Assembly: GCF_004101845.1 (NCBI RefSeq)
Contig: NZ_CP026116.1
Span: 620,001-684,000 of the forward strand
Reading direction: 5' to 3'
Source of the DNA: Latilactobacillus curvatus JCM 1096 = DSM 20019
GTDB taxonomy: Bacteria; Bacillota; Bacilli; Lactobacillales; Lactobacillaceae
DNA: 64,000 bases
The first letter of the stretch is position 1. Every line of letters starts with the position of its first letter. A program made the position numbers and the translations under genes. Shown here in pieces: positions 3,376-28,738 of this stretch. The notes under the pieces were generated by a model. It had not been told where the DNA came from, made no database searches, and worked only from the letters and a program-made list of their open reading frames with translations.

Positions 3376-4593
3376 TTACAATAGTTCAGCAATGATTTCT
3401 TCGTCTTGATTTAAGAATTGATCGCCAGCTTTGATTTCTGTCACTTTAATTCCAGCAAGTGAGCGTTCAATCAAGGCATCCACATCGATGCGTTGTTCGT
3501 AGAACCGGGTCTTATCTAAGTTAGGCCGGGTCTTCGGTGCTGGTGGTGCAAAAATGGTACAGCAATCTTCGAATGGCATGATTGATAATTCGTACGTATC
3601 AATATCCTTCGCAATTTCAATGATTTCATTCTTATCCATTGTCGCAACTGGCCGCACGATTGGCGTTGTTGTGACATCATTGATAGCCATCATACTTTCA
3701 AGTGTTTGTGAGGCCACTTGACCGACAGATTCCCCATTAAAAATGGCTAAACCTTGGCGCTTAGCACGGATTTGATCCGTTAAACGCAACATCATCCGCC
3801 GTTGAATGGTCATTAAGTAACCTTCTGGCACAGAATGCTTCACTTCTTCTTGAATTTCCGTGAATGGGACTTCGATAAACTTAATCCCACCAACGTATGG
3901 CACCAATTTCGCCGTTAATTCTTTGGCCTTATTCAAGGCATTGTCGCTTGTGTATGGTGGGCTAAAGAAATGCACCATTTCAATGTCGACACCCCGTTTG
4001 AGCGTTAAGTAACCTGCTACTGGTGAATCAATCCCACCAGATAACATCAACATTCCTTTACCGGCAGAACCGACTGGTAAGCCACCAGCCCCTTGAATCA
4101 CTTGGTTGGTTAAGTAAATCGCATCTTGGCGAATTTCAACCCGCAAAGTAATGTCAGGTTTTTTCATTTGCACTTCTAATTCAGGTAATTCATCTGATAA
4201 GTAACCACCTAATTCGCGGTTCATATCATTCGTATCCAAGAAGAAATTGTGATCAGAACGACGTGTGTTAACTTTGAAAGACATCCCAGGTTTGCCGATT
4301 TCTTTCATCATGGCAAGCGCCATTTCTTTAACAGAATCTAAATCACGATCAACTTGGATACTTGGTGAGAAGTTTTGGATGCCGAAGACGTGACGGAGAC
4401 GTTCGATAACGCCTTCTGCATCGTCGCCGTTTAAAACGATATGCATCCGGTCACGTTTAGGGTGAATCCGGAGTTGTTTATACTCGTGAAGCGCCTTTGT
4501 GACGTTCCCGTTTAACCGACCGATAAAATCGTTCCGGTTTTTACCCTTTGTCGAAAGTTCGCCGTAGCGAACCATAATTTCAGTGTATTGCAT
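3376..4593 (-). CDS. thiI: tRNA 4-thiouridine synthase ThiI
   Basis: Adenylates U8 of tRNA and transfers sulfur to form 4-thiouridine. The N-terminal THUMP region covers roughly residues 60-165. The PP-loop SGGIDS at 185-190 binds ATP, and the FEDCC motif near residue 343 carries the conserved cysteines. At 405 residues it lacks the C-terminal rhodanese domain of the enterobacterial protein, as is normal for Firmicutes. It starts 24 bp after the upstream cysteine desulfurase stop, with AGGAG before the ATG. Pairing with a dedicated desulfurase matches the NifZ-ThiI arrangement known in Bacillus. Confidence 0.95.
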
Positions 4594-4617
4594 GCCTATC
4601 TCCTTTTAGATGGTAGT

Positions 4618-5766
4618 TTACGAATTAATTTTTTTGAAGCGTTCGTTAATTTGATCGAACGCTTTGATGAATGCATCCGCTTCTTCTAGCGTATTGTATT
4701 CATCGAGGGATACCCGAATGGCGCTTGGCGCAATTTTTTCATTGACGTGCATTGCCTTTAAGGTACTAGATTCAGTCCCTTTCTTCGAAGAGCAAGCACT
4801 TGTCGTTGAAATATAGATTTCGTGTTCTTCAAACGCATGAACCGTTGTTTCACCGCGAACACCTTTAATTGCGAAGCACAAAATATGCGGCGCAAAATCA
4901 GGCGTCAGTTGTGAAAACATAACCGTTTTATCCGATTGACTGATATGGTTAAAGAGTCGTTCTCGAATAGCTGCTTGGCGGTGTACTTTTTCAGTCTCAT
5001 CGGTCAATAACAAACGTAAGGCTTTGGCCATTGCCGCGATGGCTGGCACATTTTCGGTTCCAGAACGTAAATCATGCTCTTGGCCCCCACCGGTTAAAAG
5101 CGGCGCTAAATGACGCCCGCGTTTCTTATACAAAATCCCAGTCCCCCGTGGGCCGTGGAACTTATGCCCTGATAAGGTCACAAAATCAACGCGTTCGTTG
5201 AAAATCGCCTCTTGAATGCCTTTGCCAATCCCTTGAACGGCATCAACGTGGAAATGAATATTAGGATAATCCTTCAAAATATCAGCAATGGCTTCAAGTG
5301 GCTGACACGTTCCGATTTCGTTATTAATGGCCATGATCGAAACTAAAATGGTATCAGGCCGCAATGCTGCTTTTAAGTCAGCCGGATCAATTCGACCAAA
5401 CTGATCAACGGGTAGATAAGTCACATCAAAGCCTAATTTTTCCAGTTGCTGCATGGATTTAATGATGGCTGGATGTTCAACCGATGTCGTAATTAAATGT
5501 TTCCCAAACGCCCGTTTTTCAATTGCCGTGCCTTTTAAGACCCAGTTATCGCCTTCTGTTCCACCGCTGGTAAAGAAGATTTCATCGTGGTCTACGCCTA
5601 ATAAATCAGCGATTTGTTGGCGTGATTGTTCTAAAATATGAAAGGCTTTTTCCCCAATCACATGTAAACTAGAGGGGTTGCCGAAGAACTGTTCACTAAC
5701 CGCTTGATAGGTCTGAAGTGCGCCTGGCGCGATTTTAGTGGTGGCACTATTGTCAAAATAAATCAT
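4618..5766 (-). CDS. Cysteine desulfurase (IscS/NifS type), sulfur donor for ThiI
   Basis: PLP enzyme that takes sulfur from cysteine as a protein persulfide. The PLP lysine is K202 in SGHKFHGPRG, and the active cysteine is C325 in STTSACSSKKG. At 382 residues it is a class I type desulfurase, distinct from the SufS encoded at 31.1-32.4 kb. It sits directly upstream of thiI in the same operon, so its most likely job is delivering sulfur for tRNA thiolation. This family member is often called NifZ or IscS; I leave the symbol open. The ATG is preceded by AAGGA. Confidence 0.92.
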   Translation of the reverse strand: MIYFDNSATTKIAPGALQTYQAVSEQFFGNPSSLHVIGEKAFHILEQSRQQIADLLGVDHDEIFFTSGGTEGDNWVLKGTAIEKRAFGKHLITTSVEHPAIIKSMQQLEKLGFDVTYLPVDQFGRIDPADLKAALRPDTILVSIMAINNEIGTCQPLEAIADILKDYPNIHFHVDAVQGIGKGIQEAIFNERVDFVTLSGHKFHGPRGTGILYKKRGRHLAPLLTGGGQEHDLRSGTENVPAIAAMAKALRLLLTDETEKVHRQAAIRERLFNHISQSDKTVMFSQLTPDFAPHILCFAIKGVRGETTVHAFEEHEIYISTTSACSSKKGTESSTLKAMHVNEKIAPSAIRVSLDEYNTLEEADAFIKAFDQINERFKKINS

Positions 5767-5860
5767 ATCGATCCTTCTTACTAAAAATTAGTGTTTTAAC
5801 GTTGTACATTATAGCAAATTGGTTATTAAAGACAACCAATTAATCTTTAACAAAACAAAT

Positions 5861-5886
5861 CCGAGACAAAATGCGTCTTGTCTCGG
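5861..5886 (-). terminator. Terminator after ezrA
   Basis: Nine-bp arms CCGAGACAA and TTGTCTCGG, with a T-rich tail on the minus strand, lie 20 bp beyond the ezrA stop. Confidence 0.8.
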
Positions 5887-5906
5887 ACTGGTGAGCATCT
5901 AAGTGA

Positions 5907-7619
5907 CTAATTAGTTGCGTCTGACTTTTGGTCGTAATAGGCCTTTTCAACTTGTGTGTAAGCACCTGGATCAACCTTTTCAAGGGCCGTTGCCAATAAG
6001 TCGACAGCTTTAGCATAGTCGTATTCTTCATTAAAAATGGTTTGGACCGTCACACAGGCTTCCTGGATGGCGGGAAAATCTGCACGATATCGGTTGGCAT
6101 ATTGTAACAATTGCTCCGTAATCAATGCACTGTCAATTAAGGTATCCGTCTTGGCCTTCAATTCATCTAAATCCTCTTGAACGAGAATTAATTGCTTCGC
6201 GATATCGTCTAAATTAATCTTAATTTGATTCAAATCATGATCAAGTTTTTGAATCTCATCAGAAACAACGAAGAAGAAATCCAAATATTTCTGTTGTAAA
6301 CCAGGTAAATTAACCTTTTCAACAGCGCGCTTCAAGTTACGTAGTTCAAGTTCAAACTGGCGTAAGTTTTCATTAGCGACGACTTCGCCTTGATGCAAAC
6401 TAGCAACCTGATCATGAATTGCTTGTTGTTTTTCTTCGATGACAGTTAGCCGTTCGTCAATCCCGGTCAAATCTTCAGCAATCGCCGTGTAAACCGCTTC
6501 GTGGTTGGCAATCTTCGCTTGGTGCCCTTCAACTAACGCCTGTTCTTCACCAATTTGCTTTTGTAATTGTTTGGCGCTTGCCAACTCACCATGTGTGAGT
6601 GCATAACTCTGATTGAGATGATCGAGTTCCAATAATAGCTCATGGTTCTGACGTTCAGCATGTTGCACGAATGTCGCGGTGGTTGGCAATTGCGTCGCGA
6701 CTGCCTTCTTGGCAGTCATCTCAGCTTCTAATTGATCATATAATTGATCAATGCCACGTGCAATTTCATCGTTATTGGCTTCAACCGACTCAATGGCCAA
6801 ATCACTTAACAAGGTAGTGCTCTTATCAAGTTGATCCATTAGTTGTTGTTGTTTGACTTCAATCTGCCGATCATCAAATTGATAATGTTCTTTTAACATT
6901 TGATGGTAGGTATCATTAATTTCAACCAGTTGTTCGGGAAACTCGTTAGCTAATTCGTTATAGCGCTTTGGAATCCGTTCCATCTGGTCTTCTAATTGCG
7001 TTGTTTCAGTAATTAATTTCTGCAAAATGGCCTTAGCCCCTAGATGGTCGCCGGCTGTTGTTAGTTCGTTGGCTTCGTCAAAATCCACCTCTAAGCGACC
7101 TAACGTTGCTTCAAGCACATCTAATGCAGGTCCAAACGAAAAACTCTTAGTCAACAAACGTTTACGTAGTTGTTGATATTGTTCTCGTAGACGCTGAATT
7201 TTTTGACGTGTATCGGCTTCATTGGCAAGTAGATTTTCTAAAGCATCTTGAACATCCAGTAAATCTTGATCCGTTTCAGTCAAGTACGCCCGCAATTGTT
7301 TGAGAATCCGTGCAACCTGAATGAATTGGTATTTGGCATTGGCCGTTTCCGCATCAAAAAGATAGCCTTCAATCGTGCTGAAGTTATGGTTGGTAATCTG
7401 CTCATATTGTTTTTCCCAACGATCAAAGTTTTGCAAACTTTCGCCCGTCAAATGTAACGACCGTAACTTCGTTAAGCGTTCCGGAATCGGCAACGCCATT
7501 AAGTCGCCTTTATGTGCTTCTAGTTGTTTAATTTGTTTGATAAAATAACGTTGATAAAAAACAACACTTAGGTAGCCAATCAGTGCGACGACTACGATTC
7601 CAATGAGAATGTAAAACAT
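5907..7619 (-). CDS. ezrA: Septation ring formation regulator EzrA
   Basis: Membrane-anchored negative regulator of FtsZ ring assembly. One N-terminal transmembrane segment (about residues 2-23) is followed by about 545 residues of almost continuous helical coiled coil, the spectrin-like layout of EzrA. The 570-residue length is typical. A likely promoter on the minus strand has an extended -10, TGCTATAAT, at 7697-7705. The gene is monocistronic here, next to the desulfurase-thiI pair and divergent from rpsD, the same neighbourhood as in Bacillus. Confidence 0.93.
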   Translation of the reverse strand: MFYILIGIVVVALIGYLSVVFYQRYFIKQIKQLEAHKGDLMALPIPERLTKLRSLHLTGESLQNFDRWEKQYEQITNHNFSTIEGYLFDAETANAKYQFIQVARILKQLRAYLTETDQDLLDVQDALENLLANEADTRQKIQRLREQYQQLRKRLLTKSFSFGPALDVLEATLGRLEVDFDEANELTTAGDHLGAKAILQKLITETTQLEDQMERIPKRYNELANEFPEQLVEINDTYHQMLKEHYQFDDRQIEVKQQQLMDQLDKSTTLLSDLAIESVEANNDEIARGIDQLYDQLEAEMTAKKAVATQLPTTATFVQHAERQNHELLLELDHLNQSYALTHGELASAKQLQKQIGEEQALVEGHQAKIANHEAVYTAIAEDLTGIDERLTVIEEKQQAIHDQVASLHQGEVVANENLRQFELELRNLKRAVEKVNLPGLQQKYLDFFFVVSDEIQKLDHDLNQIKINLDDIAKQLILVQEDLDELKAKTDTLIDSALITEQLLQYANRYRADFPAIQEACVTVQTIFNEEYDYAKAVDLLATALEKVDPGAYTQVEKAYYDQKSDATN

Positions 7620-12295: not shown

Positions 12296-13576
12296 ATGCA
12301 ACAACCTCTCGCATTTCGCATGCGTCCGACTAACATCGATGAAGTTGTCGGTCAGACGCACTTAGTGGGGCCGCAAAAAATCATTCGCCGAATGGTTGAT
12401 GCCAAACTCCTCTCATCAATGATTCTCTACGGACCGCCTGGTACTGGTAAAACGAGTATCGCTAGTGCCATCGCCGGTAGTACCCAGTACGCTTTTCGCA
12501 TGCTGAATGCTGCCACTGATAGTAAAAAAGATTTACAGATTGTCGCTGAAGAAGCCAAAATGAGTGGCACCGTGATTTTACTCCTCGATGAAATTCACCG
12601 CTTGGATAAAACCAAACAGGATTTTCTCTTACCACATCTAGAAAGTGGCCGCATTATCTTAATTGGTGCAACTACCGAAAATCCATATATCAGTATCAAC
12701 CCTGCCATTCGGAGTCGGGCCCAAATTTTTGAAGTCAAGCCCCTCACTGAAGCCGACATTCATGTTGCCATTCAACGGGCACTGACAGATAAAGAAAAAG
12801 GCTTAGGTGCACTAGCCATCAATCTCGATGAAACGGCTGAACAATACCTTGCCCGCGTCACAAACGGTGATTTACGGAGTGCTTTAAACGCCCTCGAACT
12901 CGCTGCTCGTTCAACACCAGCGAATCCAGACACCAACGTCATCGACATCGATATTGACGTTATTGAAGAATGCGTGCAGAAAAAAGCCATTACTCATGAT
13001 AAAGATGGCGATGCCCATTACGATGTCATCTCCGCCTTTCAAAAATCAGTCCGTGGCAGTGACGTTGATGCTGCGCTCCATTATATGGGCCGTTTGATTG
13101 AAGCCGGTGATTTAATGTCGATTAGTCGGCGCTTGATGACAATGGCCTACGAAGATATCGGCCTCGCCAACCCTCAAGCCTGTGCCCGTACAGTCGAGGC
13201 AATTGCTGCGGCTAAACAACTTGGTTTTCCCGAAGCCCGGATTCCACTGGCCGTAGCAGTGATTGATCTCTGCTTATCTCCAAAATCAAATTCGGCCATC
13301 ACCGCAATTGATAACGCGTTAGCTGATATTCGCGCTGGCAAAGCCGGTGAAGTCCCCGATCATCTCCGTGATGCCCATTATGCAGGGGCTGAAAAACTTG
13401 GCCACGGTGTCGACTACAAATATCCTCATAATTATCCCAACGACTGGGTCGCGCAAGATTACCTACCAGATAAGCTCTTAGGTAGTCATTATTACGAAGC
13501 AAAAGCAACTGGTAAATACGAGCAAGTCCTCAAACAACAGCTAGAACGCTTGCGCCAAGCCAGTCCGCATAAGTGA
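12296..13576 (+). CDS. rarA: Replication-associated recombination protein RarA (MgsA)
   Basis: AAA+ ATPase acting at stalled replication forks, related to clamp-loader subunits. Walker A is GPPGTGKT at residues 46-53, Walker B is LLLDEI at 95-100, and the C-terminal tetramerisation domain follows residue 240. The product is 426 residues. The ATG at 12296 is preferred over one at 12287 that overlaps the AAAGGA site. Divergent from gshF and followed by 6S RNA, a context also seen around B. subtilis yrvN. Confidence 0.95.
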   Translation: MQQPLAFRMRPTNIDEVVGQTHLVGPQKIIRRMVDAKLLSSMILYGPPGTGKTSIASAIAGSTQYAFRMLNAATDSKKDLQIVAEEAKMSGTVILLLDEIHRLDKTKQDFLLPHLESGRIILIGATTENPYISINPAIRSRAQIFEVKPLTEADIHVAIQRALTDKEKGLGALAINLDETAEQYLARVTNGDLRSALNALELAARSTPANPDTNVIDIDIDVIEECVQKKAITHDKDGDAHYDVISAFQKSVRGSDVDAALHYMGRLIEAGDLMSISRRLMTMAYEDIGLANPQACARTVEAIAAAKQLGFPEARIPLAVAVIDLCLSPKSNSAITAIDNALADIRAGKAGEVPDHLRDAHYAGAEKLGHGVDYKYPHNYPNDWVAQDYLPDKLLGSHYYEAKATGKYEQVLKQQLERLRQASPHK

Positions 13577-13629
13577 ACGGTTACAAAAGTGTTGTGTTAA
13601 CATCACGAGCGTGCTACTATAATAGTAGG

Positions 13630-13866
13630 ATTTCTAAGGTGTGCGCGTCTTCCCACCTTATGTTGACCGATCAAGTAATTCGTTAATGGGACGGATGAGT
13701 TATTAGCGAGTGTAGACTTTTTCGCGAAGGAACCAAGTCTAATAATAATCTGACCCACCTGCATTTTCTAGCGGGCTCAACTATCGGGAAGCATCTACGG
13801 CACCACTAGATTTCCCAAAGTCCAACGACTTTGACCGGGCTAACGTTTACGTTGGTCCTTTTTTGT
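13630..13866 (+). ncRNA. ssrS: 6S RNA
   Basis: A 300-nt gap after rarA begins with TATAAT at 13618-13623, so transcription should start near 13630. A closing stem pairs TCTA-AGGTG (about 13632-13641) with CACCACTAGA (13801-13810). The stretch ACCTGCATTTTCTAGCGGGCTC resembles the corresponding part of B. subtilis 6S-1 RNA. A second hairpin (AAAGTC/GACTTT, 13817-13832) is followed by a terminator with 9-bp arms and a T run (13837-13866). 6S RNA binds sigma-A RNA polymerase and damps transcription in slow growth. Assignment rests on structure, partial similarity and its place next to rarA. Confidence 0.75.
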
Positions 13867-13889
13867 TGATTATTTTAGGAGGTTGCACA

Positions 13890-14165
13890 TTGATTCAAAT
13901 CGCCATAATCGTTTTTTTAATCATTATCGCCCTACTTGGTGCGATTTTATGTTACTACCAAGACAAGAAGTTCCTACTCTTTGATTTAACTGAAAACCGG
14001 CATTTAGGTCGATTGATGTACTTTTCAGGGATTGCACTCATCGGTGTAGCGATCTGCGGGGCTTTGATTTACTGGCTATTGCCACTAGTCTGGACATTGG
14101 TGACGCTCGTTGCTGCCAGTTTAATCGCCGGCTTAGTCGGCCTTAGCTTTGCAACTAACCTTTAA
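13890..14165 (+). CDS. Small membrane protein, unknown function
   Basis: A 91-residue protein with three likely transmembrane segments (about residues 2-22, 41-60 and 63-86) and a short polar loop containing DKKFLLFDLTENRHLGRL. I use the TTG at 13890, which follows AGGAGG by 7 nt. A reading from 13863 would begin inside the 6S terminator. I do not recognise the family with confidence. It lies between 6S RNA and a universal stress protein and has its own ribosome-binding site. Confidence 0.7.
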   Translation: MIQIAIIVFLIIIALLGAILCYYQDKKFLLFDLTENRHLGRLMYFSGIALIGVAICGALIYWLLPLVWTLVTLVAASLIAGLVGLSFATNL

Positions 14166-14227
14166 GATTTACTTTTGGCACTGAACTAGCGTATAATAAA
14201 GATGTAAAATTAAATGAGGTGATGACA

Positions 14228-14725
14228 ATGTTACAACAATACAAGCACATTTTGGTCGCAATCGATGGTTCTTATGAAGCTGAACTCGCTTTCCGTAAAG
14301 CAGTTGAAGTTGCCCTTCGGAATAACGGACAACTCCACTTGATTCACGTTATCGATACCCGCGCCTTCCAAAATATCTCTAGTTTTGATTCCGCAATGGT
14401 TGAACAAGTCACAGAAACAGCTAAGAAAACAATGGACGAATACATCGTGACTGCCAATGAACTTGGCTTAAAAGATGTTGACTATAGCATTGAATATGGC
14501 GCACCAAAGAGTTTAATTGCCCGCGAAGTACCCGAAAAGAAAAATATCGATCTCATCATGATTGGTGCAACTGGTTTAAACGCTGTTGAACGTCTCTTGA
14601 TTGGTTCTGTAACGGAATACGTTACTCGGACCGCCGTTTGCGACGTGCTCGTTGTGCGGACAGATTTAGATAATAAACACGCACTCAACAAGAAACGCAG
14701 TAGCATTGGTCACGAAGAAGCATAA
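14228..14725 (+). CDS. Universal stress protein (UspA family)
   Basis: A 165-residue single Usp domain. It opens with YKHILVAIDGS and ends with the ATP-binding pattern GATGLNAVERLLIGSVTEYV, so it should bind ATP and dimerise. The start at 14228 sits 6 nt after TGAGGTGA; two earlier in-frame starts overlap that site. It is a single gene with its own terminator. Confidence 0.93.
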   Translation: MLQQYKHILVAIDGSYEAELAFRKAVEVALRNNGQLHLIHVIDTRAFQNISSFDSAMVEQVTETAKKTMDEYIVTANELGLKDVDYSIEYGAPKSLIAREVPEKKNIDLIMIGATGLNAVERLLIGSVTEYVTRTAVCDVLVVRTDLDNKHALNKKRSSIGHEEA

Positions 14726-14735
14726 ATTAGCAATC

Positions 14736-14768
14736 AAAAAGCCGGGACGCTTATGTCCCGGCTTTTTT
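14736..14768. terminator. Bidirectional terminator, usp / XRE-TPR gene
   Basis: Arms AAAAAGCCGGGAC and GTCCCGGCTTTTT lie between converging genes, with a long T run. Confidence 0.92.
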
Positions 14769-14782
14769 TAGTGGTTAACCAC

Positions 14783-15625
14783 TTATTCAGCCAATTGTTG
14801 ATCAACTTGCACAATAATCTCTGGATGATGCCGGATTAACGCCAATGTTTTAGCAACCGTTAAATCCTGTAAGGCGTTCTCTCGATGAAGCACATGTTCT
14901 GCACGACCAAGAATGAAATACAATGCATCAAGTAAGTAAAGACTTTGCTTATCGATTGCTTCGTCAATCGCAAGCTGAGCGTACTTAATCGCACCTTCAT
15001 AATCCTTCAATTCAAAAAGAATTCCCGCTAAGTGATTATAAATCTGCAACTCAACTTGGAAATCGGCCATAGCAAGTGGATCAGAATTCTCCAACATTTC
15101 AACGGCTTGTTCTGCATAAATCCGTACACGCTCTAAAGCGCCCTTCATCAAATAGGACTTGCTAATGCCGATAATACATAGAATACCGTAAACATCCGTC
15201 TGAGAAACAACGTATTGATTGAAGGCACGATTGAAAAAGAAAAGTGCATCGTCCGGTTTATTCTCCAGCAATAACTTAATTTGACCTTGGAAATAATAAT
15301 ACCGTTTGTAATCATCTGCTTTGACCAGTTGATCTGTGTAGATCTGCTGAATCAAATCACGTGCTTTTTTGAATTCATTGGTAAATAACAATGCTTGCAC
15401 ACGACTCAACAAGACGTGTAATTGATCATCTTCTTGCACAATCACTGAGTCCAACGTAATTTCAAGCCGCTTACAAATTTCCAAGAGAATCTTTGTGCTT
15501 GGCACCTGTTCTTTTTTCTCAATTAAGCTAATTGTTGCTTGCGTACAAATCCCCTTAGCTAACTCCGCTTGAGACATCCCCCGTGCTTTACGGATTTGTT
15601 TTAGTTTATCCCCTAATATTCTCAT
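14783..15625 (-). CDS. XRE-family regulator with TPR-like C-terminus (RRNPP-like)
   Basis: A 280-residue regulator. Residues 5-60 form a helix-turn-helix of the XRE class with the segment GICTQATISLIEKK. The remaining ~220 residues are helical repeats that look like tetratricopeptide units, the architecture of Rgg/PlcR-type peptide-responsive regulators. A paralogue with the same HTH wording lies at 25461-26291. An IS30 element starts 33 bp upstream of the ATG, so the native promoter is probably cut off. Peptide sensing is an inference from architecture only. Confidence 0.85.
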   Translation of the reverse strand: MRILGDKLKQIRKARGMSQAELAKGICTQATISLIEKKEQVPSTKILLEICKRLEITLDSVIVQEDDQLHVLLSRVQALLFTNEFKKARDLIQQIYTDQLVKADDYKRYYYFQGQIKLLLENKPDDALFFFNRAFNQYVVSQTDVYGILCIIGISKSYLMKGALERVRIYAEQAVEMLENSDPLAMADFQVELQIYNHLAGILFELKDYEGAIKYAQLAIDEAIDKQSLYLLDALYFILGRAEHVLHRENALQDLTVAKTLALIRHHPEIIVQVDQQLAE

Positions 15626-15658
15626 TTTAAATACTCCAATTACATCATTATTTAATTT

Positions 15659-16691
15659 GGCAAATTCTATAATTAATCCGAACAGAAATTAAAAAGCCCA
15701 AAGCAATCACTTACAATGGTAGTAGCTAATTCCAACCAATATAGGGAGTGATTACTTTGGGTACATCTACTTTATCACGTTTTCAACGTGGCGCACTAGC
15801 ACAACTGGTCAATGAGGGGAATAAATCTTACCAAGTAATGGCTGACGCCTTAGGCGTCGCCAAAGCTACGATTAGCTATGAGTTGGACCGAGTTAAACCT
15901 TATGATCCAGAATTAGCTCAGCAAGATGCAGATCGCAAAAGGCGGAATTGCGGTCGTCGTTCGATGCTGACGGCAGCATTAGCGACTTTAATTACCAATC
16001 ACTTACGATTAACCTGGTCACCAGAAACCATTGCGGCCGCTTATAACTTGAGCACTGCGTCAATTTATAATTGGCTTAATCGTGGCTGGCTCCCCTTCAA
16101 ATTGACTGATCTACCCAATCGGAATGTCCGCCAGCACCGAGTGAGCGAAAATCGTGGGAAATTTACAAGTGGGACTTCCATCGAACAACGGCCAACAACT
16201 GTTAATCAACGGTTAGCTTTTGGTCATTGGGAAGTAGATACGGTGCTTTCTAGTCGAAGTGAGTCACGATCATGTCTGGTTACATTCGTAGAACGTAAGA
16301 CCCGACTTCTATGGGCCATCAAAGCCCCTAATAGAACGGCTAAGGCTCTAAACACCGCCTTTGGCAAGTTTATGGGGGCCTTCGGTCCCCAAGTAAAATC
16401 CATTACTGTTGATCATGGTAAAGAGTTTGCCAATTATCAGGCCTTAGAACAGGATTATCAGATCAAAGTTTATTTTTGCCATCCATATTCACCATGGGAG
16501 CGAGGTTCCAATGAATATTTTAATAGACGGTTACGCTGGTTCTTCCCGAAAAAGACCAATTTTAGCCAAGTAACGACTGATGAGATCCTAGCAGCACTTG
16601 AACTAATTAATCAACGACCATTAAAAATACATCATCAACAGACTGCCATTGAAAGATTCCGGGCTTGTTCGGATTAAACTTGTAATTTGCC
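15659..16691 (+). mobile_element. IS30-family element, copy 1
   Basis: A complete 1033-bp element. The ends begin GGCAAATT and contain TTAATCCGAACA on both sides as imperfect inverted repeats. The duplicated target is ATTT (15655-15658 and 16692-16695). A second copy with the same length and transposase lies at 27706-28738. Insertion is 33 bp before the start codon of the XRE-TPR gene. Confidence 0.93.
15757..16677 (+). CDS. IS30-family transposase
   Basis: A 306-residue DDE transposase. It has an N-terminal HTH (YQVMADALGVAKATISYEL) and a catalytic core starting at FGHWEVDTV, with a later D in TVDHGKEF and E in PWERGSNEYFNR. The TTG start at 15757 follows GGGAG by 8 nt. Reading frame and ends are intact, so the element may be mobile. 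Confidence 0.93.
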   Translation: MGTSTLSRFQRGALAQLVNEGNKSYQVMADALGVAKATISYELDRVKPYDPELAQQDADRKRRNCGRRSMLTAALATLITNHLRLTWSPETIAAAYNLSTASIYNWLNRGWLPFKLTDLPNRNVRQHRVSENRGKFTSGTSIEQRPTTVNQRLAFGHWEVDTVLSSRSESRSCLVTFVERKTRLLWAIKAPNRTAKALNTAFGKFMGAFGPQVKSITVDHGKEFANYQALEQDYQIKVYFCHPYSPWERGSNEYFNRRLRWFFPKKTNFSQVTTDEILAALELINQRPLKIHHQQTAIERFRACSD

Positions 16692-16898
16692 ATTTAAAAT
16701 TAATTTCCGGAAAATATAACCCAATTAAGTAATTTACATCAATTAGCAATGACGCTACTAGTTGCGTTTATTATACACTATGAACTAGTTATGTGGCATT
16801 ACTTATTTTTTTATCCAATAAGTATTTTACACTACATACTAAACATTACCAAACATTTATCTTTAATTAATTGTTAAGGTGTTGTTCGATAGTACGAC

Positions 16899-16933
16899 AA
16901 AAAAACGGCTTCCTGCAGCGGAAGCCGTTTTTT
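16899..16933 (-). terminator. Terminator after the HAD gene
   Basis: Arms AAAACGGCTTCC and GGAAGCCGTTTT overlap the stop codon of the minus-strand gene. The stretch 16692-16898 holds no convincing gene; a TTGATG-18 bp-TATATT promoter candidate points toward the disrupted XRE-TPR gene (-10 at 16713-16718). Confidence 0.85.
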
Positions 16934-17579
16934 ATAACGTTGCTAATATTGCCGGAACTTCTTTTAATGATTCAATTTGATAATCCGCTGCCGATTGATC
17001 AATCGCGAAAAGTGGATCAAATGGTTTTAATGCGATGACGGTTAAACCAGCCGCCTTCCCCGCTTGAATCCCCAGTGCAGAGTCTTCAATCGCAACCGCC
17101 TCGGTTGGTTCTAAATGCATTCTTTTAAGCGCTTCTAGATACACATCTGGTGCTGGTTTATTATGCGCAATCTCTGCACCACTAACAACCGTTTCAAAAT
17201 AAGGTTCTAACGCGGTTTCCAACAACATTTGTTGAATAATTCCGCGCTCACCAGCGGACGCCAAACCGATTTGATATGTCGGTGCAACGGTTGCTAATAA
17301 CGGTTGCGCGTCTGGGTTCATGATATTTTTAAAAACGATTGGATGAGCCGCTTTATACGACGTATAGCCGTTTTTAATTGCCGCTCGTTCCAAAACAGTA
17401 TGGTTTGGAAACAACTGTTTTAAAACGGCATTCATATTGGAACCAATTTGTTTACGACTTTCCTCTGCCGTTAGTCGTGCGCCAATTGCATTCAAAAATG
17501 CTAAGCGTTGTTCAAAATAGTACGGTTCACTATCCACTAAAACGCCATCGACGTCAAAAATAATCCCTTTTACTGTCAT
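16932..17579 (-). CDS. HAD-family phosphatase/phosphomutase (beta-phosphoglucomutase-like)
   Basis: A 215-residue HAD hydrolase with the nucleophile pair D9 and D11 in FDVDGVLVDSEP, a helical cap from about residue 15 to 80, and the downstream KPAPDVYLEAL and IEDSALGIQAGKAAG motifs. These fit the beta-phosphoglucomutase / sugar-phosphatase branch. The substrate cannot be read from sequence, and no maltose or trehalose phosphorylase lies next to it. It follows the DUF2785 gene by 24 bp, probably in one transcript. Confidence 0.85.
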   Translation of the reverse strand: MTVKGIIFDVDGVLVDSEPYYFEQRLAFLNAIGARLTAEESRKQIGSNMNAVLKQLFPNHTVLERAAIKNGYTSYKAAHPIVFKNIMNPDAQPLLATVAPTYQIGLASAGERGIIQQMLLETALEPYFETVVSGAEIAHNKPAPDVYLEALKRMHLEPTEAVAIEDSALGIQAGKAAGLTVIALKPFDPLFAIDQSAADYQIESLKEVPAILATL

Positions 17580-17603
17580 CTTCTCTCAATCCTATCTGGT
17601 TAA

Positions 17604-18578
17604 TTAAAATAAATCTGAAATCTTCCGTAAGTAATCCGCAATTTTATCAGGTAATTCAGGTTGTAGCAACAATGACTGTAAAAAGCGATTGCGGTTATAC
17701 CACCGATTCCAAAAACCAACGGTCTCCTGTGGTGCCATAGTCAACAATGAACGCTGCCACTCCTGTAAGACGATTAAACAATAATCGACATAGAGTTGAT
17801 GCTTGTTCATTAAACTGATTAGAACGTTCGTCAGATGACTATCTTCACCATATGCGAGTGCGTTATCAGAGAAGCGATACGCCTGTAGCACAATTGCCAT
17901 CATCAAAATCTTATCCGCACGTTGGATTTCAGGTGTTTCGTTAAGTTCTGACCAGACATTGATGATATGCGTCATCGCATGCGCCCAGCCTTTACCATCA
18001 ACGTATCCTCGTGAATCTAATTCGATGACTGTATAAGCCATTACTCGCCGTTCAATTGCCAATAATTCGGCCGTACTTAATACATGATAAAAAGTGCGGT
18101 TAGCATATAAAATCCCGGCCAAAAACATCGCGCTAAACGAACGTAAAAAAACAGCGTCATTTTCAGGTTCTAAAATATGCGCGAATAAATAATCATCTTG
18201 CAATAAGCGGTCCTTGACCCAAATCAATTGGGCTGGGGTTAAAACCGTCTGCCGTAATAATCGATTGAATAAGTAAAAAACACCTTTATCGCGCACTTGC
18301 GAATCTGGGCTTGCAAGATGCCTTAATAAATCATCGAGCTCTTCATCGCTGATGGTCGCTTCTTTGCCTTTGGTTTTAATTCGCTCATCAATTGCTGTGA
18401 TTCGTTGCAAGACTGACTCGTTGTCCTCAGGTACTACGACATGTGTCCGCCGCGTCTTATATTGGACGCCATCCATGACGACCAATACTTTTTCCGGAAT
18501 TGATTGATAGATGTCCCCTTTAATCAATGCACTACGAATCGCGTCTAACTGTTGCATCACATTTTGAACTTCCTTCAT
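17604..18578 (-). CDS. DUF2785 domain protein
   Basis: A 324-residue protein of the DUF2785 family, recognised by the central segment SRGYVDGKGWAHAMTHI and its helical repeat character. No enzymatic role is known for the family. No signal peptide or membrane segment is seen. The ATG at 18578 is preferred to the in-frame TTG just before it. It leads a two-gene unit with the HAD protein. Confidence 0.8.
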   Translation of the reverse strand: MKEVQNVMQQLDAIRSALIKGDIYQSIPEKVLVVMDGVQYKTRRTHVVVPEDNESVLQRITAIDERIKTKGKEATISDEELDDLLRHLASPDSQVRDKGVFYLFNRLLRQTVLTPAQLIWVKDRLLQDDYLFAHILEPENDAVFLRSFSAMFLAGILYANRTFYHVLSTAELLAIERRVMAYTVIELDSRGYVDGKGWAHAMTHIINVWSELNETPEIQRADKILMMAIVLQAYRFSDNALAYGEDSHLTNVLISLMNKHQLYVDYCLIVLQEWQRSLLTMAPQETVGFWNRWYNRNRFLQSLLLQPELPDKIADYLRKISDLF

Positions 18579-18783
18579 CAATCATCACCCACTCTCTACT
18601 GAAAACATCTCATAACTAACTATTATAATGCATTCGGCCACAGACATAAACTATCAATCCTTAAACAGGCCCACGATATGACAAAATCGTCACCTCGCTT
18701 AGAATAAATTCCACCTTTAGACTGAATCAATGTAACTTCTAGCTTGATACGATTAAGACATCAATTCACAAGGAGTGTCAATC

Positions 18784-19164
18784 ATGAAAAAAATCATTCT
18801 ATTACTGTTCTCACTTGGACTAATTGTTATCGGCGGTCCAATTATCGGATCAGCCACAACTCAGAATATGACGGACGGCAATGACCTTGCCCAACAGTGG
18901 GACCGGTTCAACCTCTTAATTCCCAGAGAAGCCGTCTATGTTAAAACAGCACACCAATACGGGACACAACAAGCACATGGCGATTACCTTTACCGGCAAC
19001 CTGCTTACCGTGCTGATGGCAGTCATTACGAAGTCGTTTTCCAAGCGCCGCGCGCACTAAAACCTAATCACTACTTAAAATTAGATGCCAAGGGGCGCTT
19101 CGTCAATTCTTGGACTGTCGTTTCAAAATCTGAATTGCCCGTTAAACTGCAGTCTAGTCTATAA
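18784..19164 (+). CDS. YxeA-like (DUF1093) secreted protein
   Basis: A 126-residue protein with a classic signal peptide (KK, then about 18 hydrophobic residues, cleavage near GSATT). The mature part has the YxeA-type pattern, including the segment YLYRQPAYRADGSHYEVVF. The family is small, secreted and uncharacterised. The ATG at 18784 follows AAGGAG. Single gene with a terminator at 19199-19229. Confidence 0.78.
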   Translation: MKKIILLLFSLGLIVIGGPIIGSATTQNMTDGNDLAQQWDRFNLLIPREAVYVKTAHQYGTQQAHGDYLYRQPAYRADGSHYEVVFQAPRALKPNHYLKLDAKGRFVNSWTVVSKSELPVKLQSSL

Positions 19165-19198
19165 TTGTAAAATACAATCGAACTAAATGCTGTTAATT

Positions 19199-19229
19199 GC
19201 GAAATACAAACGAGGGATTTCGCTTTTTT
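19199..19229 (+). terminator. Terminator after the YxeA-like gene
   Basis: Arms GCGAAAT and ATTTCGC are followed by TTTTTT. Confidence 0.7.
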
Positions 19230-19305
19230 CATTGCTTACATTTAATAAGTATGCTATATTATTCGCATGCACTGATAAAAACGATTTCACAAGGGAGTAA
19301 TGAAC

Positions 19306-19908
19306 ATGACAGAATTATTCGATTTACAACAAACACGCCGGACAATTTATGCACTTGGCAAAAACGTTTCAATGAGCGAAGCTGAATTATCAGAATTAAT
19401 CTTCAACACCATTAAAGAAACACCAACTGCTTTTAACGCCCAAGGTTCACGCGCCATTATTCTCTTTGGAAAAGCAAATGAAACACTTTGGAACGATATT
19501 ACAGCAACTGCCTTAAAACCATTAACACCTGCGGAAAACTTCCCAAGTACACAAGCTAAATTGGCTTCATTCACCGCTGGTGTCGGGACAATCTTGTTCT
19601 TTGAAGATCAAGACGTTGTTAAGAATCTTCAAGAAAACGTGCCATTATATGCCGAAAACTTCCCAACATGGTCAGAACAAGCTTCAGGCATGGCACAATA
19701 TGCCACTTGGTTAGCCCTCGCAGAAAAAAATGTGGGTGCTAGCTTGCAACATTATAACCCAGTAATTGATGAAGCCGTTACTGCAAAATGGAACATTCCA
19801 TCAAACTGGAAACTTCGTGCGCAAATGCCATTTGGTTCAATCGAAAATCCAGCCGATGCTAAAGACTACAATACCGATGCAAGTCGTTTCCAAACCTACA
19901 CAAACTAA
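19306..19908 (+). CDS. Nitroreductase family protein (putative NAD(P)H oxidoreductase)
   Basis: A 200-residue FMN-dependent nitroreductase of the short HBN-like branch. It opens FDLQQTRRTIYALGKNVSMSE with the RRT/RRS FMN-phosphate site and has the ETPTAFNAQGSRAIILFG and QYATWLALAEKNVGASLQHYNP segments. The physiological substrate is unknown. The ATG at 19306 lies 8 nt after GGGAG. Monocistronic, with a terminator at 19924-19952. Confidence 0.88.
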   Translation: MTELFDLQQTRRTIYALGKNVSMSEAELSELIFNTIKETPTAFNAQGSRAIILFGKANETLWNDITATALKPLTPAENFPSTQAKLASFTAGVGTILFFEDQDVVKNLQENVPLYAENFPTWSEQASGMAQYATWLALAEKNVGASLQHYNPVIDEAVTAKWNIPSNWKLRAQMPFGSIENPADAKDYNTDASRFQTYTN

Positions 19909-19923
19909 TTTTAAACCGAATCG

Positions 19924-19952
19924 ACCAGAGTGCGCATGCACTCTGGTTTTTT
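19924..19952 (+). terminator. Terminator after the nitroreductase gene
   Basis: Ten-bp arms ACCAGAGTGC and GCACTCTGGT, followed by TTTTT. Confidence 0.88.
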
Positions 19953-20148: not shown

Positions 20149-20296
20149 GCCTGTTTTTTAAAAATAACTGCTATTTACACCCGCCCACCAACTCGGTATC
20201 ATAAAGGGGTGCATTTAAAATCAAGTAAAACTACTTGGACTGGTTCGGAAACTTCCCAGAATAAAAAACTAAGGATCTCAAGGAGGTTAGAAATAA

Positions 20297-23095: not shown

Positions 23096-23854
23096 TTAAC
23101 ACTTGTCTGCTTGTATCAATTTAAGTAATGCCTCAATTCGACGGTACGAAACATCACATGTATCGCCATTTGCAAATATCACTTGATGCGTCTCCTTATC
23201 AATCCGTACGACTTTGTCCGGATTCACTAGGATACTCTTATGGGCTCTGAAAAATTGTGGCAATTGCGCTTGAATCGTCACGATTTTCCCTACAAATTCA
23301 CTTAACCGATGATCACTGTGTAAGAAGACGTGCCGTGCTTTATACGCTGTTTCGAAATAATTAATCTCTTGAATTGCCACTTTTTCAAACGATAATCCAT
23401 CATCATATTCAAAATGAGCTGGTTCTTCAGCTAATGGCACCTGTTGTTGTCGTAACTTAATGGCATCGTTAATGGTTGCTTGAATATCTGCACGAACCTG
23501 TGCTAACCCGCGATCCTTCAAAATAAAATTCAAAACATTAATTCGGCGTTGAATGGTTTCCATTAAAAGTTCGTCATGTGTTGAAACGAACACAATCTGT
23601 GCATATGGATCCAATTCACGAATTTTAAGCGCCAATTCCATCCCATCCAGCACGTCATTCTCTAAATCAATATCAAGAAAGTAAACGCCCCCTTGCGTTT
23701 GACTTTCTTGTAAAAAAATTAATAGGTCATAGCCATTCTTAGTCTTCAAACGCACCTGAGCATCCAATATATTTTGTTGAATATATGCCGTTATAATCTC
23801 TTCATAACTATCTAGTAAAACCTGTTTATCATCACATAAAAAAATATCAACCAT
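23096..23854 (-). CDS. LytTR-family response regulator (AgrA-like)
   Basis: A 252-residue regulator. The receiver domain (1-125) has acidic D8/D9 and phospho-acceptor D61 in YFLDIDL. The C-terminal LytTR DNA-binding domain (about 145-250) contains YFETAYKARHVFLHSDHR and FFRAHKSILVNPDKV. The start at 23854 follows AGGAGGAG and overlaps the kinase gene by 8 bp, so the two are translationally coupled. Predicted targets are the direct repeats at 25383-25412. LytTR proteins usually act on peptide-pheromone or bacteriocin circuits. Confidence 0.92.
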   Translation of the reverse strand: MVDIFLCDDKQVLLDSYEEIITAYIQQNILDAQVRLKTKNGYDLLIFLQESQTQGGVYFLDIDLENDVLDGMELALKIRELDPYAQIVFVSTHDELLMETIQRRINVLNFILKDRGLAQVRADIQATINDAIKLRQQQVPLAEEPAHFEYDDGLSFEKVAIQEINYFETAYKARHVFLHSDHRLSEFVGKIVTIQAQLPQFFRAHKSILVNPDKVVRIDKETHQVIFANGDTCDVSYRRIEALLKLIQADKC

Positions 23855-25223
23855 GGGTCTCCTCCTGTTCAACAACAAGCATTGCAACGAAATAGTCTCC
23901 ATCTTGTTTTAACATTAAGCTAAAATCTGAGCGCATATCCGTGATTTCTTTAGCAGTTGTGAGCCCAAGCCCGCGATTAATCCCCTTCGTTGAATAACCA
24001 GCCTGATAAAGCTGACCAAATTCTACTGGTGTATTAATCGTATTTTTGACACAATAGACCATCTTACCCTTTTGCTCGAATAAACTGACACTGATTGAAC
24101 CATCTTTAATATCATTTACCGCGTCAATTGCATTATCCAAAAAGATTCCCAGAATCCGTAATTCATCAAAATACTGTTGTTGTTGCTTAAATAAATCCGG
24201 TTGAACCTCTAAATTAAAGGGAATCCGATTATTATGTGCTTCAATATACTTGCTAAAAATAATGCCTTTAATATAAGCATTATTAATCTCTTGAAACCGT
24301 CCAATTGCCTGATCTTGAATCGTGTCAAAGTTATAATGCGTTAGTAAATCATGAAAATCCTGCATTAAAACTGGGCTCCCTTGTTCATTGATAATTGTCT
24401 CTAAAGCCAATAAAGCATTGGCGATATCGTGGCGAAACTTGCGTATTTCACGGTAGTTACGCTCTAACTGTTCAACATACAGCGTTAGATTTCGCTGACT
24501 TTCTTGTTCTACGTTGATTCTATTTTGGCGAATCACAGCTTTCGTATACAAAAGCATTCCCACAATCACCAAAACTAATAGTAATAGCACAAGTCCTAAC
24601 ACAAGGTACAAATATTCAACCGGCAGATTCGCATGCTTAAAGCTATCAAAAAGCACCATCACTGCCACCACAAATAACGCGAGACCGGCTAAAATCGTGC
24701 CGGCCACGCACATACCGTATGAAGCAATGGATGCTTTAATAAGCTGATCTAACCGTTGGACAATTAATCCTAATCCGGCTGCAATCAATAATTGACTCAA
24801 CATAATTAAACACACCATTTGCCAATTAAACTGGCTACTCATCAGATTATCAAGGCCCTTTAAGTGAGTATACCCAATTAACCCCACCGTTGTCAGAACC
24901 GATGATAGCATCACGATGATGTAACTAAAGATGGTTGCGATAATTAACGCATAACTTGTCTTTAATTTACGCAGATTTTTAAAGCCATTTAACCAACCAT
25001 ATAATCCAACAGTTGCCAAAATCAGCCATAGCTCTTCAAGAAAATTTCCAATTAATAAATCCATTCCCTGAATAAAAGCAATGCCGACTCCAACTGATAA
25101 TAGTAGTTGAAATCTGTTCGTTCGTTTCAACTTCCCCGTCAAAAATAATACTAATAGTAGAAACGAACTAAACGTACTTAGATTAATGATAATCTGCATT
25201 GCCAGCGGCATTTTCATTGCCAT
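23847..25223 (-). CDS. AgrC-like sensor histidine kinase
   Basis: A 458-residue HPK10-type kinase. About seven transmembrane segments occupy residues 8-230, followed by a coiled linker, the phospho-acceptor H265 in RKFRHDIAN, an N box around LDNAIDAV and a glycine-rich NRGLGLTTAKE. This is the layout of kinases that sense secreted peptides. The ATG follows GGGAG by 8 nt. It is 23 bp downstream of the short peptide ORF and overlaps the response regulator gene. The signal is unknown; it is not the usual agr locus because no AgrB is present. Confidence 0.92.
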   Translation of the reverse strand: MAMKMPLAMQIIINLSTFSSFLLLVLFLTGKLKRTNRFQLLLSVGVGIAFIQGMDLLIGNFLEELWLILATVGLYGWLNGFKNLRKLKTSYALIIATIFSYIIVMLSSVLTTVGLIGYTHLKGLDNLMSSQFNWQMVCLIMLSQLLIAAGLGLIVQRLDQLIKASIASYGMCVAGTILAGLALFVVAVMVLFDSFKHANLPVEYLYLVLGLVLLLLVLVIVGMLLYTKAVIRQNRINVEQESQRNLTLYVEQLERNYREIRKFRHDIANALLALETIINEQGSPVLMQDFHDLLTHYNFDTIQDQAIGRFQEINNAYIKGIIFSKYIEAHNNRIPFNLEVQPDLFKQQQQYFDELRILGIFLDNAIDAVNDIKDGSISVSLFEQKGKMVYCVKNTINTPVEFGQLYQAGYSTKGINRGLGLTTAKEITDMRSDFSLMLKQDGDYFVAMLVVEQEETHG

Positions 25224-25246: not shown

Positions 25247-25291
25247 TTAATTCCAAAACCAGAAAATTAAATTTTGAATGTTACTCATCAT
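25247..25291 (-). CDS. Candidate signalling peptide, 14 residues (MMSNIQNLIFWFWN)
   Basis: A very short ORF encodes MMSNIQNLIFWFWN. The strong Shine-Dalgarno AAAGGAGGGG (25299-25308) is 9 nt from the ATG, far better than chance upstream sequence. It ends 23 bp before the kinase gene in the same orientation and lies downstream of the LytTR-type operator. The C-terminal half is hydrophobic and aromatic (LIFWFW), like linear pheromones, and it lacks the cysteine needed for an Agr thiolactone ring. A leader peptide controlling kinase translation is the main alternative. No family recognised. Confidence 0.6.
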   Translation of the reverse strand: MMSNIQNLIFWFWN

Positions 25292-25344
25292 TATCATACC
25301 CCTCCTTTCATATTATGAATACCCATGATTGGTGACTCATTTCG

Positions 25345-25412
25345 ATTTTATCACGTAATTTTTTTAAAAGGATTAAATGTCATAAACGTATACTTGTCTG
25401 CATTAAACGTAT
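25345..25412 (-). promoter_or_regulatory. LytTR-type operator and promoter of the peptide-kinase-regulator unit
   Basis: Read on the minus strand, ATACGTTTA occurs twice (25404-25412 and 25383-25391) with exactly 12 bp between copies. That 9-12-9 direct repeat is the layout of operators bound by AgrA/PlnC-type LytTR dimers. A -10-like GATAAAAT lies at 25345-25352, about 30 bp downstream of the second repeat, with no good -35, as expected for an activated promoter. The upstream repeat also touches a TATAAT (25412-25417) facing the divergent XRE-TPR gene. Confidence 0.65.
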
Positions 25413-25460
25413 ATAATTAATCATAAATATAGATAAATAATTACTATTTGGAGGCTAAAA

Positions 25461-26291
25461 ATGTTTTTAGGCCAATTGATCCATCAACAGCGACTCAACA
25501 AGCAACTGACACAGTCTGAATTAGCAGCGGGGATTTGCACGCAAAATACAATCAGCAAAATTGAAAAGAAAAATCTGCCCCCCACAATCCCAATTCTAAT
25601 TAAGATTTGTACACGGCTTGGATTGACATTAAATGAACTTTTCACCGAATTTAACGCGCTCGACACTGCCAGTGACGAAGGCGTGATTTCTGCGGAAGTT
25701 GCTTTATTAGCAGGCGATTCTGGCCCTGCTGCCGCATTAATTACCGATATCGACTTCAAGGCAACCGAACATCCTTATCCCGCCATCTTCTTCTTTTTCA
25801 ATGGCTATTTAAGTTACCTTGACCATCAATCTGAATTACAGATTTTTTCCGCTTATAACTCGTTCACAGCGGCCATCGGTGACGACACTTCAACGTTGAA
25901 GTTACTTCTAAATACCGGTATGGGTTTAATTTACCAAGAAGCTGGCGAGGAATTAGCTGATTTTTATTTCAATAATAATATCAATTTCATCAACCAACTT
26001 GATCACATCAATGTCATTGATGTTCAACGCGTCCTATTTGCTTCGCGTCACACAGCAGCCTATATGATTAACCAACACCGCATTGATGCAGCTATCGAGT
26101 TTTTGACGAAAGCCCTCAAACTGAGTCAAAAAAATCAAATCATCAAACAAGTCGATCATTTGTATTACCTCCGTGCTCGGGCACGCCAACAAAGCGGTCG
26201 AGACTATGCAGAAGATCGCGAAACCGCGTTAGTTTTTGCCAAATACCTTAAAAATAACGCGTTAATCGCGAAAATTAAAGCGTTAAACTAA
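25461..26291 (+). CDS. XRE-family regulator with TPR-like C-terminus (RRNPP-like), second copy
   Basis: A 276-residue regulator with an XRE helix-turn-helix (residues 5-60, including GICTQNTISKIEKK) and a C-terminal helical repeat domain. It is related to the regulator at 14783-15625. It is divergent from the peptide-kinase-regulator unit and shares its intergenic region with the LytTR repeats. The ATG follows TTTGGAGG. It may be a second receptor or a target of the same circuit; that is inference. Confidence 0.85.
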   Translation: MFLGQLIHQQRLNKQLTQSELAAGICTQNTISKIEKKNLPPTIPILIKICTRLGLTLNELFTEFNALDTASDEGVISAEVALLAGDSGPAAALITDIDFKATEHPYPAIFFFFNGYLSYLDHQSELQIFSAYNSFTAAIGDDTSTLKLLLNTGMGLIYQEAGEELADFYFNNNINFINQLDHINVIDVQRVLFASRHTAAYMINQHRIDAAIEFLTKALKLSQKNQIIKQVDHLYYLRARARQQSGRDYAEDRETALVFAKYLKNNALIAKIKALN

Positions 26292-26410: not shown

Positions 26411-26662
26411 ATGCCAACTCGTTACGACAAAGAATTCAAACAAAACATTATCAACCTATATAAGCAAGGCGAATCAGCTGCCCAACTGGCCAGAGAATAT
26501 GGCATTGGCTATTCAACAGTTCATAAGTGGATCCAGGGCCAGGCCAAAACTCAATCCGGTAAATCGCCAGACGAAATCAAAGCGATGGAAAAGCGACTGG
26601 CTTCGCTGTCTGAGGAGAACGAAATCCTAAAAAAAGCCCTGGGCTTCCTTGCGCAGAAGTAA
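26411..26662 (+). CDS. IS3-family OrfA
   Basis: An 83-residue protein with an HTH (AAQLAREYGIGYSTVHKWIQ) and a leucine-zipper tail. Near its end is A7 (26629-26635). A -1 slip there opens the frame straight into orfB, the usual way IS3 elements make the OrfAB transposase. Confidence 0.92.
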   Translation: MPTRYDKEFKQNIINLYKQGESAAQLAREYGIGYSTVHKWIQGQAKTQSGKSPDEIKAMEKRLASLSEENEILKKALGFLAQK

Positions 26663-26715
26663 CCAATATCTTTGATTACATTCACCAAGAAAGCCATCAC
26701 CACCAGGTAACCAAG

Positions 26716-27558
26716 ATGTGCCGAATCCTCGGTGTTTCCAGAGCTCAGTATTATCGTTATCGATCCCCCAAACCTTCAAAACGCCGGGCCGAAGATGCGG
26801 GCTTGAAACAACGGATTCTGCGGATCTTTGCGGAATTTAAGCAGCGATACGGTGTTATGAAGATCCACCATGAATTGAATCTGGAACTTCAACCACTGCA
26901 GCTTCGGTGCAGTCCACGACGGATTTCCCGGCTCATGAAGGAACTGGATAGCCACTCCGTTACCGTCAATAAGTGGAAAGCGGCTTCGGCTTCCAAAACC
27001 AAGGTTGAACAGCGTCCCAACTTACTTAAGCAGGATTTCTCGACCACTGGTTTAAATCAAAAATGGACCGCTGATATGACCTATATTCAAACGAAGGGTA
27101 ATGGCTGGTGTTACTTATCAACCATCATGGACCTGCACTCACGACGGATTATCGGCTATTCGTTCTCAAAAAAGATGGCTACTGATTTAGTCTTAAAGCC
27201 CCTTGAAAGCGCGGTTAAAAATCGAACCATTACTGGGGACCTGATTATCCATACGGATTTAGGATCACAGTATACCAGCGATGATTACAATCAACGTTTA
27301 ACTGAGCTACATATCCGCCACTCATACAGCCGTAAGGGTTGTCCGTATGATAATGCGCCAATGGAATCCTTTCACGCTTCCCTCAAAAAGGAATGTGTTT
27401 ATCCAGTGCCGGTCTTTGAAGATTATGAAACTGCCGCTGCCGTCCTTTTTGAATATGTGCATGCTTTCTACAATAAGAAGAGAATTCATAGTTCACTGGG
27501 CTACCAGACCCCCTTACAAGTTGAAATTGCAACACTTACGAGCCAAATGGCCGCCTGA
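26716..27558 (+). CDS. IS3-family OrfB (DDE integrase core)
   Basis: A 280-residue catalytic part. It has the N-terminal HTH-21 region and a DDE core with D in WTADMTYI, D in IHTDLGSQYTS and E in APMESFHASLKKE. The C-terminus KKRIHSSLGYQTP is complete. Its frame is open upstream to the slippery A7 in orfA, so a fusion product is possible. Confidence 0.92.
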   Translation: MCRILGVSRAQYYRYRSPKPSKRRAEDAGLKQRILRIFAEFKQRYGVMKIHHELNLELQPLQLRCSPRRISRLMKELDSHSVTVNKWKAASASKTKVEQRPNLLKQDFSTTGLNQKWTADMTYIQTKGNGWCYLSTIMDLHSRRIIGYSFSKKMATDLVLKPLESAVKNRTITGDLIIHTDLGSQYTSDDYNQRLTELHIRHSYSRKGCPYDNAPMESFHASLKKECVYPVPVFEDYETAAAVLFEYVHAFYNKKRIHSSLGYQTPLQVEIATLTSQMAA

Positions 27559-27705: not shown

Positions 27706-28738
27706 GGCAAATTCTATAATTAATCCGAACAGAAATTAAAAAGCCCAAAGCAATCACTTACAATGGTAGTAGCTAATTCCAACCAATATAGGGAGTGATT
27801 ACTTTGGGTACATCTACTTTATCACGTTTTCAACGTGGCGCACTAGCACAACTGGTCAATGAGGGGAATAAATCTTACCAAGTAATGGCTGACGCCTTAG
27901 GCGTCGCCAAAGCTACGATTAGCTATGAGTTGGACCGAGTTAAACCTTATGATCCAGAATTAGCTCAGCAAGATGCAGATCGCAAAAGGCGGAATTGCGG
28001 TCGTCGTTCGATGCTGACGGCAGCATTAGCGACTTTAATTACCAATCACTTACGATTAACCTGGTCACCAGAAACCATTGCGGCCGCTTATAACTTGAGC
28101 ACTGCGTCAATTTATAATTGGCTTAATCGTGGCTGGCTCCCCTTCAAATTGACTGATCTACCCAATCGGAATGTCCGCCAGCACCGAGTGAGCGAAAATC
28201 GTGGGAAATTTACAAGTGGGACTTCCATCGAACAACGGCCAACAACTGTTAATCAACGGTTAGCTTTTGGTCATTGGGAAGTAGATACGGTGCTTTCTAG
28301 TCGAAGTGAGTCACGATCATGTCTGGTTACATTCGTAGAACGTAAGACCCGACTTCTATGGGCCATCAAAGCCCCTAATAGAACGGCTAAGGCTCTAAAC
28401 ACCGCCTTTGGCAAGTTTATGGGGGCCTTCGGTCCCCAAGTAAAATCCATTACTGTTGATCATGGTAAAGAGTTTGCCAATTATCAGGCCTTAGAACAGG
28501 ATTATCAGATCAAAGTTTATTTTTGCCATCCATATTCACCATGGGAGCGAGGTTCCAATGAATATTTTAATAGACGGTTACGCTGGTTCTTCCCGAAAAA
28601 GACCAATTTTAGCCAAGTAACGACTGATGAGATCCTAGCAGCACTTGAACTAATTAATCAACGACCATTAAAAATACATCATCAACAGACTGCCATTGAA
28701 AGATTCCGGGCTTGTTCGGATTAAACTTGTAATTTACC
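27706..28738 (+). mobile_element. IS30-family element, copy 2
   Basis: A 1033-bp element in the same orientation as the copy at 15659-16691, with the same transposase. The target duplication is CAAT (27702-27705 and 28739-28742). The right tip reads AATTTACC instead of AATTTGCC in copy 1, a one-base change in the outer inverted repeat. Confidence 0.93.
27804..28724 (+). CDS. IS30-family transposase
   Basis: A 306-residue transposase with the same protein sequence as the one at 15757-16677, from the TTG start after GGGAG. It has an intact HTH and DDE core. Confidence 0.93.
   Translation: MGTSTLSRFQRGALAQLVNEGNKSYQVMADALGVAKATISYELDRVKPYDPELAQQDADRKRRNCGRRSMLTAALATLITNHLRLTWSPETIAAAYNLSTASIYNWLNRGWLPFKLTDLPNRNVRQHRVSENRGKFTSGTSIEQRPTTVNQRLAFGHWEVDTVLSSRSESRSCLVTFVERKTRLLWAIKAPNRTAKALNTAFGKFMGAFGPQVKSITVDHGKEFANYQALEQDYQIKVYFCHPYSPWERGSNEYFNRRLRWFFPKKTNFSQVTTDEILAALELINQRPLKIHHQQTAIERFRACSD

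Follow-up and report, generated by a model that had tools for sequence, protein, structure and literature searches.

A candidate leaderless peptide signal beside an AgrC-like kinase in Latilactobacillus

In the 64,000-nucleotide stretch of the Latilactobacillus curvatus JCM 1096 = DSM 20019 genome analysed here (the window), a small open reading frame on the minus strand (25291-25247) encodes the 14-residue peptide MMSNIQNLIFWFWN, followed by TAA. A complete Shine-Dalgarno (SD) sequence, AAGGAGG (25301-25307, minus strand), lies 9 nt before its ATG, and its stop codon lies 23 nt before the ATG of a kinase gene. In-frame ATGs also exist at 25297 and 25288. The former would give MIMMSNIQNLIFWFWN but is only 3 nt from the SD, so the 14-mer (or the 13-mer from 25288) is the likelier product. 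The mini-ORF is followed in the operon by a gene for an AgrC-like sensor histidine kinase (23847-25223, minus strand), which has about six hydrophobic, presumably membrane-spanning segments before its FRHD motif and a GHKL ATPase domain, and for which the AgrC catalytic module is the best PDB match (E=1e-29), and then by a gene for an AgrA-like response regulator of the LytTR family (23096-23854, minus strand). Thus, the original prediction, that an unannotated cysteine-free peptide ORF with an unusually strong SD precedes an AgrC-like kinase with neither an AgrB protease nor an ABC exporter adjacent, is confirmed. However, it overlooked the divergent gene at 25461-26291 (plus strand), which belongs to the same module and encodes an HTH protein with a TPR-like C-terminal part. 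A profile of 12 homologues of this protein matches PlcR over nearly its whole length (E=3.8e-9), PlcR being the first hit among the PDB entries, with no RopB up to E=1. Its structure model, although of low confidence (mean pLDDT 62), has ComR, PlcR and Rgg2 as the best Foldseek matches, none of which is below E=0.001. A second, distant (27% identical) HTH/TPR-type regulator, paralogous to the divergent one, is encoded at 14870-15619 on the minus strand of the window. The divergent gene is followed by a hairpin with a T run and then by IS3-type (26411-27558) and IS30-like (27795-28724) transposase genes, and no mini-ORF was seen by eye downstream of it.

Between the two transcription units lies a perfect tandem repeat of the LytTR type, TACGTTTA-N13-TACGTTTA (25383-25411, minus strand; 21-bp period), which is presumed to be the operator and is the only zero-mismatch copy in the 1.92-Mb genome. 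An extended -10 box of the peptide-kinase operon, TGATAAAAT, is found at 25345-25353 (minus strand). The repeats and a TGN-TANNAT box at 29–31 nt from the right-hand repeat are conserved in all five Latilactobacillus promoters compared, from four species, as expected of a promoter activated by a LytTR protein. On the other strand, a TATAAT of the divergent gene (25412-25417), identical in the four Latilactobacillus loci, abuts the left-hand repeat, so the same operator probably also affects that gene, by activation or by exclusion. A search for a LytTR regulon elsewhere gave 34 approximate sites in the genome against 65 for the reversed control pattern, so nothing beyond the own promoter stands out. 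As no other strong site exists in the genome, we infer that the divergent regulator is the likeliest carrier of the output.

The occurrence of the mini-ORF is more than expected by chance, since an ATG ORF of 10–40 codons with a perfect AAGGAGG appears in only 0.1% of dinucleotide shuffles of this stretch. Of the six species of the genus examined, four have the locus. In Latilactobacillus fragifolii the peptide is MMNGIQNLIFWFWN with the same SD. Its last ten residues (IQNLIFWFWN) are identical, with two synonymous and no amino-acid changes, while the flanks are 69–74% identical. L. fuchuensis has MISLFRLWTWIMDLFD at the same place with a perfect SD, although its locus has been rearranged so that the divergent regulator gene lies between kinase and response regulator; both separated units carry the repeats, and the mini-ORF stays with the kinase. 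L. graminis, in contrast, has only a weak-SD ORF with an unrelated sequence and no convincing mini-ORF, which is the clearest exception in the genus. In L. fragifolii and L. graminis, a cluster with DUF4176 proteins resembling type VII secretion effector loci (1-7336 and 12917-19928 of the stretches labelled L054 and L055) lies next to the divergent regulator, and in the window its place is taken by the IS elements. A search of named genomes for the kinase by exact peptide patterns found nothing, whereas a search with the divergent regulator gave the named relatives.

Moreover, reading upstream of more distant AgrC-like kinases showed the same four-part locus (divergent PlcR/ComR-like regulator, short leaderless ORF, AgrC-like kinase and LytTR regulator) in two further genera of Lactobacillaceae. 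In the second genus (labelled g4 here), where several species have it, the peptides include MLNIFQVLSTIGKTWGLRGH, MLNIFETLIGGGNHWGIKWY, MDIYSMLISIFDGAKHR, MDIFTSFISIGSIFLHH, MFDSLQILANFDLLRDMSHH and MGLFTFFLDWGLPGSNH, and in the third (g38) the peptide is MTSFTILWLWHWGRG. One peptide (in genome G274) ends in Cys. Among 17 loci of this type, 11 have an ATG ORF of 12–45 codons with at least 5 of 7 SD matches ending near the kinase start, against 0.59 expected from shuffles. The loci share ancestry, so the nominal probability (1e-13) overstates the case, but the sequences are so diverged that inheritance of unselected ORFs is not plausible. The remaining six have weak or non-ATG candidates or, in one case (genome G315), a deletion of the upstream region. 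This loss of the promoter/SD region, and a kinase with in-frame stops behind a 40-residue ORF in genome G125, are signs of decay of the locus. In the second genus the locus is flanked by secreted SlpA-domain/glucosaminidase or other small secreted proteins, which, like the DUF4176 cluster, are possible outputs of the circuit, but nothing firm can be said. In three other genera the arrangement is different: g3 and g33 have the order regulator-response regulator-kinase and g35 has another order, with no mini-ORF seen in any of them. The kinases of a further group (g5) have possible mini-ORFs that do not align and were left out, and a collection of plasmids gave only catalytic-domain matches, below about 35% identity. 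In addition, a different cysteine-free 34-residue ORF with a good SD, MSNIASLLGTSATSSYMYGATTKDPWGQIMAIFK, precedes another AgrC-like kinase in genome G043 (about 1352-1456 of the stretch L027), which has no AgrB.

The window's genome has no hits for AgrB (PF04647) and none for the peptidase C39 of double-glycine exporters (PF03412), so neither known maturation route for ligands of AgrC/ComD-type kinases exists there. AgrB is also absent from the three other Latilactobacillus with the locus, and none was found above cutoff in 14 genomes of the two other genera. Conversely, it occurs in the two Latilactobacillus species that lack this locus (genomes G093 and G062), a reciprocal distribution. A thiolactone or lactone signal was therefore rejected, since there is no AgrB and no Cys, and Ser4 of the 'MMSN' start is not conserved in L. 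fragifolii. Compared with agr (AgrBDCA) of staphylococci and the lam/agr-like loci of lactobacilli, the locus shares the AgrC-like kinase, the AgrA-like LytTR regulator, the tandem repeats with a positive-feedback layout and the hypervariable sensor, but it has no AgrD leader or tail, a peptide of only 14 residues and a divergent RRNPP-type regulator. A double-glycine pheromone was likewise rejected. In the three-component bacteriocin/competence pheromone systems (ComC-ComD-ComE, PlnA-PlnB-PlnC/D and SppIP-SppK-SppR), a peptide gene, an HPK10-type kinase and a LytTR regulator also lie in one operon behind tandem repeats, and a linear ligand is proposed here as well, but our locus has no double-glycine leader, a much shorter precursor and no adjacent bacteriocin genes. 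EcsB, a homologue of a subunit of the PptAB exporter, which exports Rgg peptides in Streptococcus thermophilus (PMC7564271), is present in all six Latilactobacillus. Export by EcsAB is an inference, however, and export without a leader is not demonstrated for this genus.

To find out which protein is the likely receptor, we compared the divergence of the parts of the locus. The sensor half of the kinase is much less conserved than its catalytic half (63 vs 79%, 36 vs 63% and 25 vs 51% against the three Latilactobacillus relatives), whereas the divergent regulator stays at 58–74%. Across eight loci with clear peptides, peptide similarity correlates with sensor identity (r=0.79), also after removing the catalytic domain (0.58, permutation p=0.001) or the C-terminal domain of the regulator (0.71), but it does not follow the latter once the sensor is removed (-0.29). 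Although the permutation does not fully remove phylogeny, and eight to ten loci are few for such a test, the pattern is that of pherotypes with the kinase as receptor. Among the ALTERNATIVES, the closest rival is that the peptide is the ligand of the divergent regulator, being exported, re-imported by an oligopeptide permease and bound in the cytoplasm as in the leaderless communication peptide (LCP)/RopB or ComS/ComR systems, while the kinase senses something else. In its favour, the regulator is RRNPP-like and is the constant partner of the locus, RRNPP regulators in other systems are often flanked by leaderless peptides, and LCP/RopB pairs are widespread, leaderless and aromatic (PMC10518010). 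As in those pairs, an unannotated leaderless peptide with a strong SD lies beside an RRNPP-type regulator. However, here the peptide is in an operon with a membrane kinase whose sensor co-varies with it, the peptides are mostly 14–20 rather than 8–10 residues, and the regulator is closest to PlcR among solved structures. As in PlcR-PapR and ComR-ComS, an HTH-TPR regulator of that fold is next to a short hydrophobic or aromatic peptide, but there is no Sec signal, no peptide gene was seen downstream of the regulator, and the peptide is co-transcribed with a two-component system. The location on the kinase side, the linkage to the kinase after rearrangement in L. fuchuensis, the co-variation with the sensor and the small change of the regulator between loci with quite different peptides argue against this rival, which we consider unlikely, but because peptide-contacting residues evolve slowly in the LCP class (PMC10518010), it is not excluded. 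It is also conceivable, though doubtful, that one peptide feeds both receptors, the kinase outside the cell and, after re-import, the divergent regulator inside it, in a dual-sensor circuit joining the two branches of Gram-positive peptide signalling in one locus.

Two other explanations do not involve intercellular signalling. The ORF could be a translated leader that tunes translation or mRNA stability of the kinase, for instance by ribosome loading or Trp-dependent stalling, since it is very short, has a strong SD, lies 0–30 nt from the kinase start or overlaps it in some relatives, and has Trp codons in several peptides. But no stable or unusual fold (z 0.78, 1.59, -0.67), no terminator between the genes and no Rfam match there were found (a PreQ1 riboswitch aptamer lies at 20234-20278 of the window), the kinase has its own SD, Trp is absent from several peptides, and the preservation of the C-terminal residues and the co-variation with the sensor remain unexplained. 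A Trp attenuator or riboregulator is thus not supported, and a leader role appears improbable. Alternatively, the peptide could be membrane-active, either as a tiny leaderless antimicrobial or as a cis-acting peptide that modulates the kinase within the same cell. The peptides are short, hydrophobic and leaderless, and intracellular modulation would also give the co-variation, but 12–24 residues is much shorter than known leaderless bacteriocins, no immunity or dedicated exporter gene is adjacent, and variable peptides with an autoregulatory LytTR operator are inferred to fit pherotypes better. This remains possible but is the least likely of these readings.

Considering the gene order, the preserved peptide C-terminus, the recurrence in three genera, the co-variation with the sensor and the conserved promoter, we assume, with moderate confidence, that the mini-ORF encodes the autoinducing peptide of a self-contained quorum-sensing circuit, in line with the original prediction of a candidate pheromone. 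The peptide might be made without leader or modification, exported by a general short-peptide exporter such as EcsAB/PptAB and possibly trimmed, and its aromatic C-terminal part could bind the membrane sensor of the kinase as a linear ligand. The kinase would then phosphorylate the LytTR regulator, which would bind the tandem repeats, raise transcription of peptide, kinase and regulator in positive feedback, and alter transcription of the divergent PlcR/ComR-like regulator, which probably carries the output. This signalling function rests on inference from sequence. We place the locus with three-component peptide quorum sensing, with a leaderless linear peptide, an AgrC-like kinase, a LytTR regulator and a divergent RRNPP-type regulator. 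It is neither agr nor a double-glycine system, and it is not shown to be an LCP/RopB system. No description of this locus type was found in the open-access literature searched. If this reading is true, AgrC-type kinases can be driven by unmodified, leaderless peptides of 14–20 residues, which would give ligands to some of the AgrC-like kinases in lactobacilli that have neither AgrB nor a double-glycine peptide. Such peptides are easy to synthesise and could supply orthogonal inducible systems. It also shows that searching for mini-ORFs next to kinases, not only next to RRNPP regulators, can uncover signals missed by annotation.
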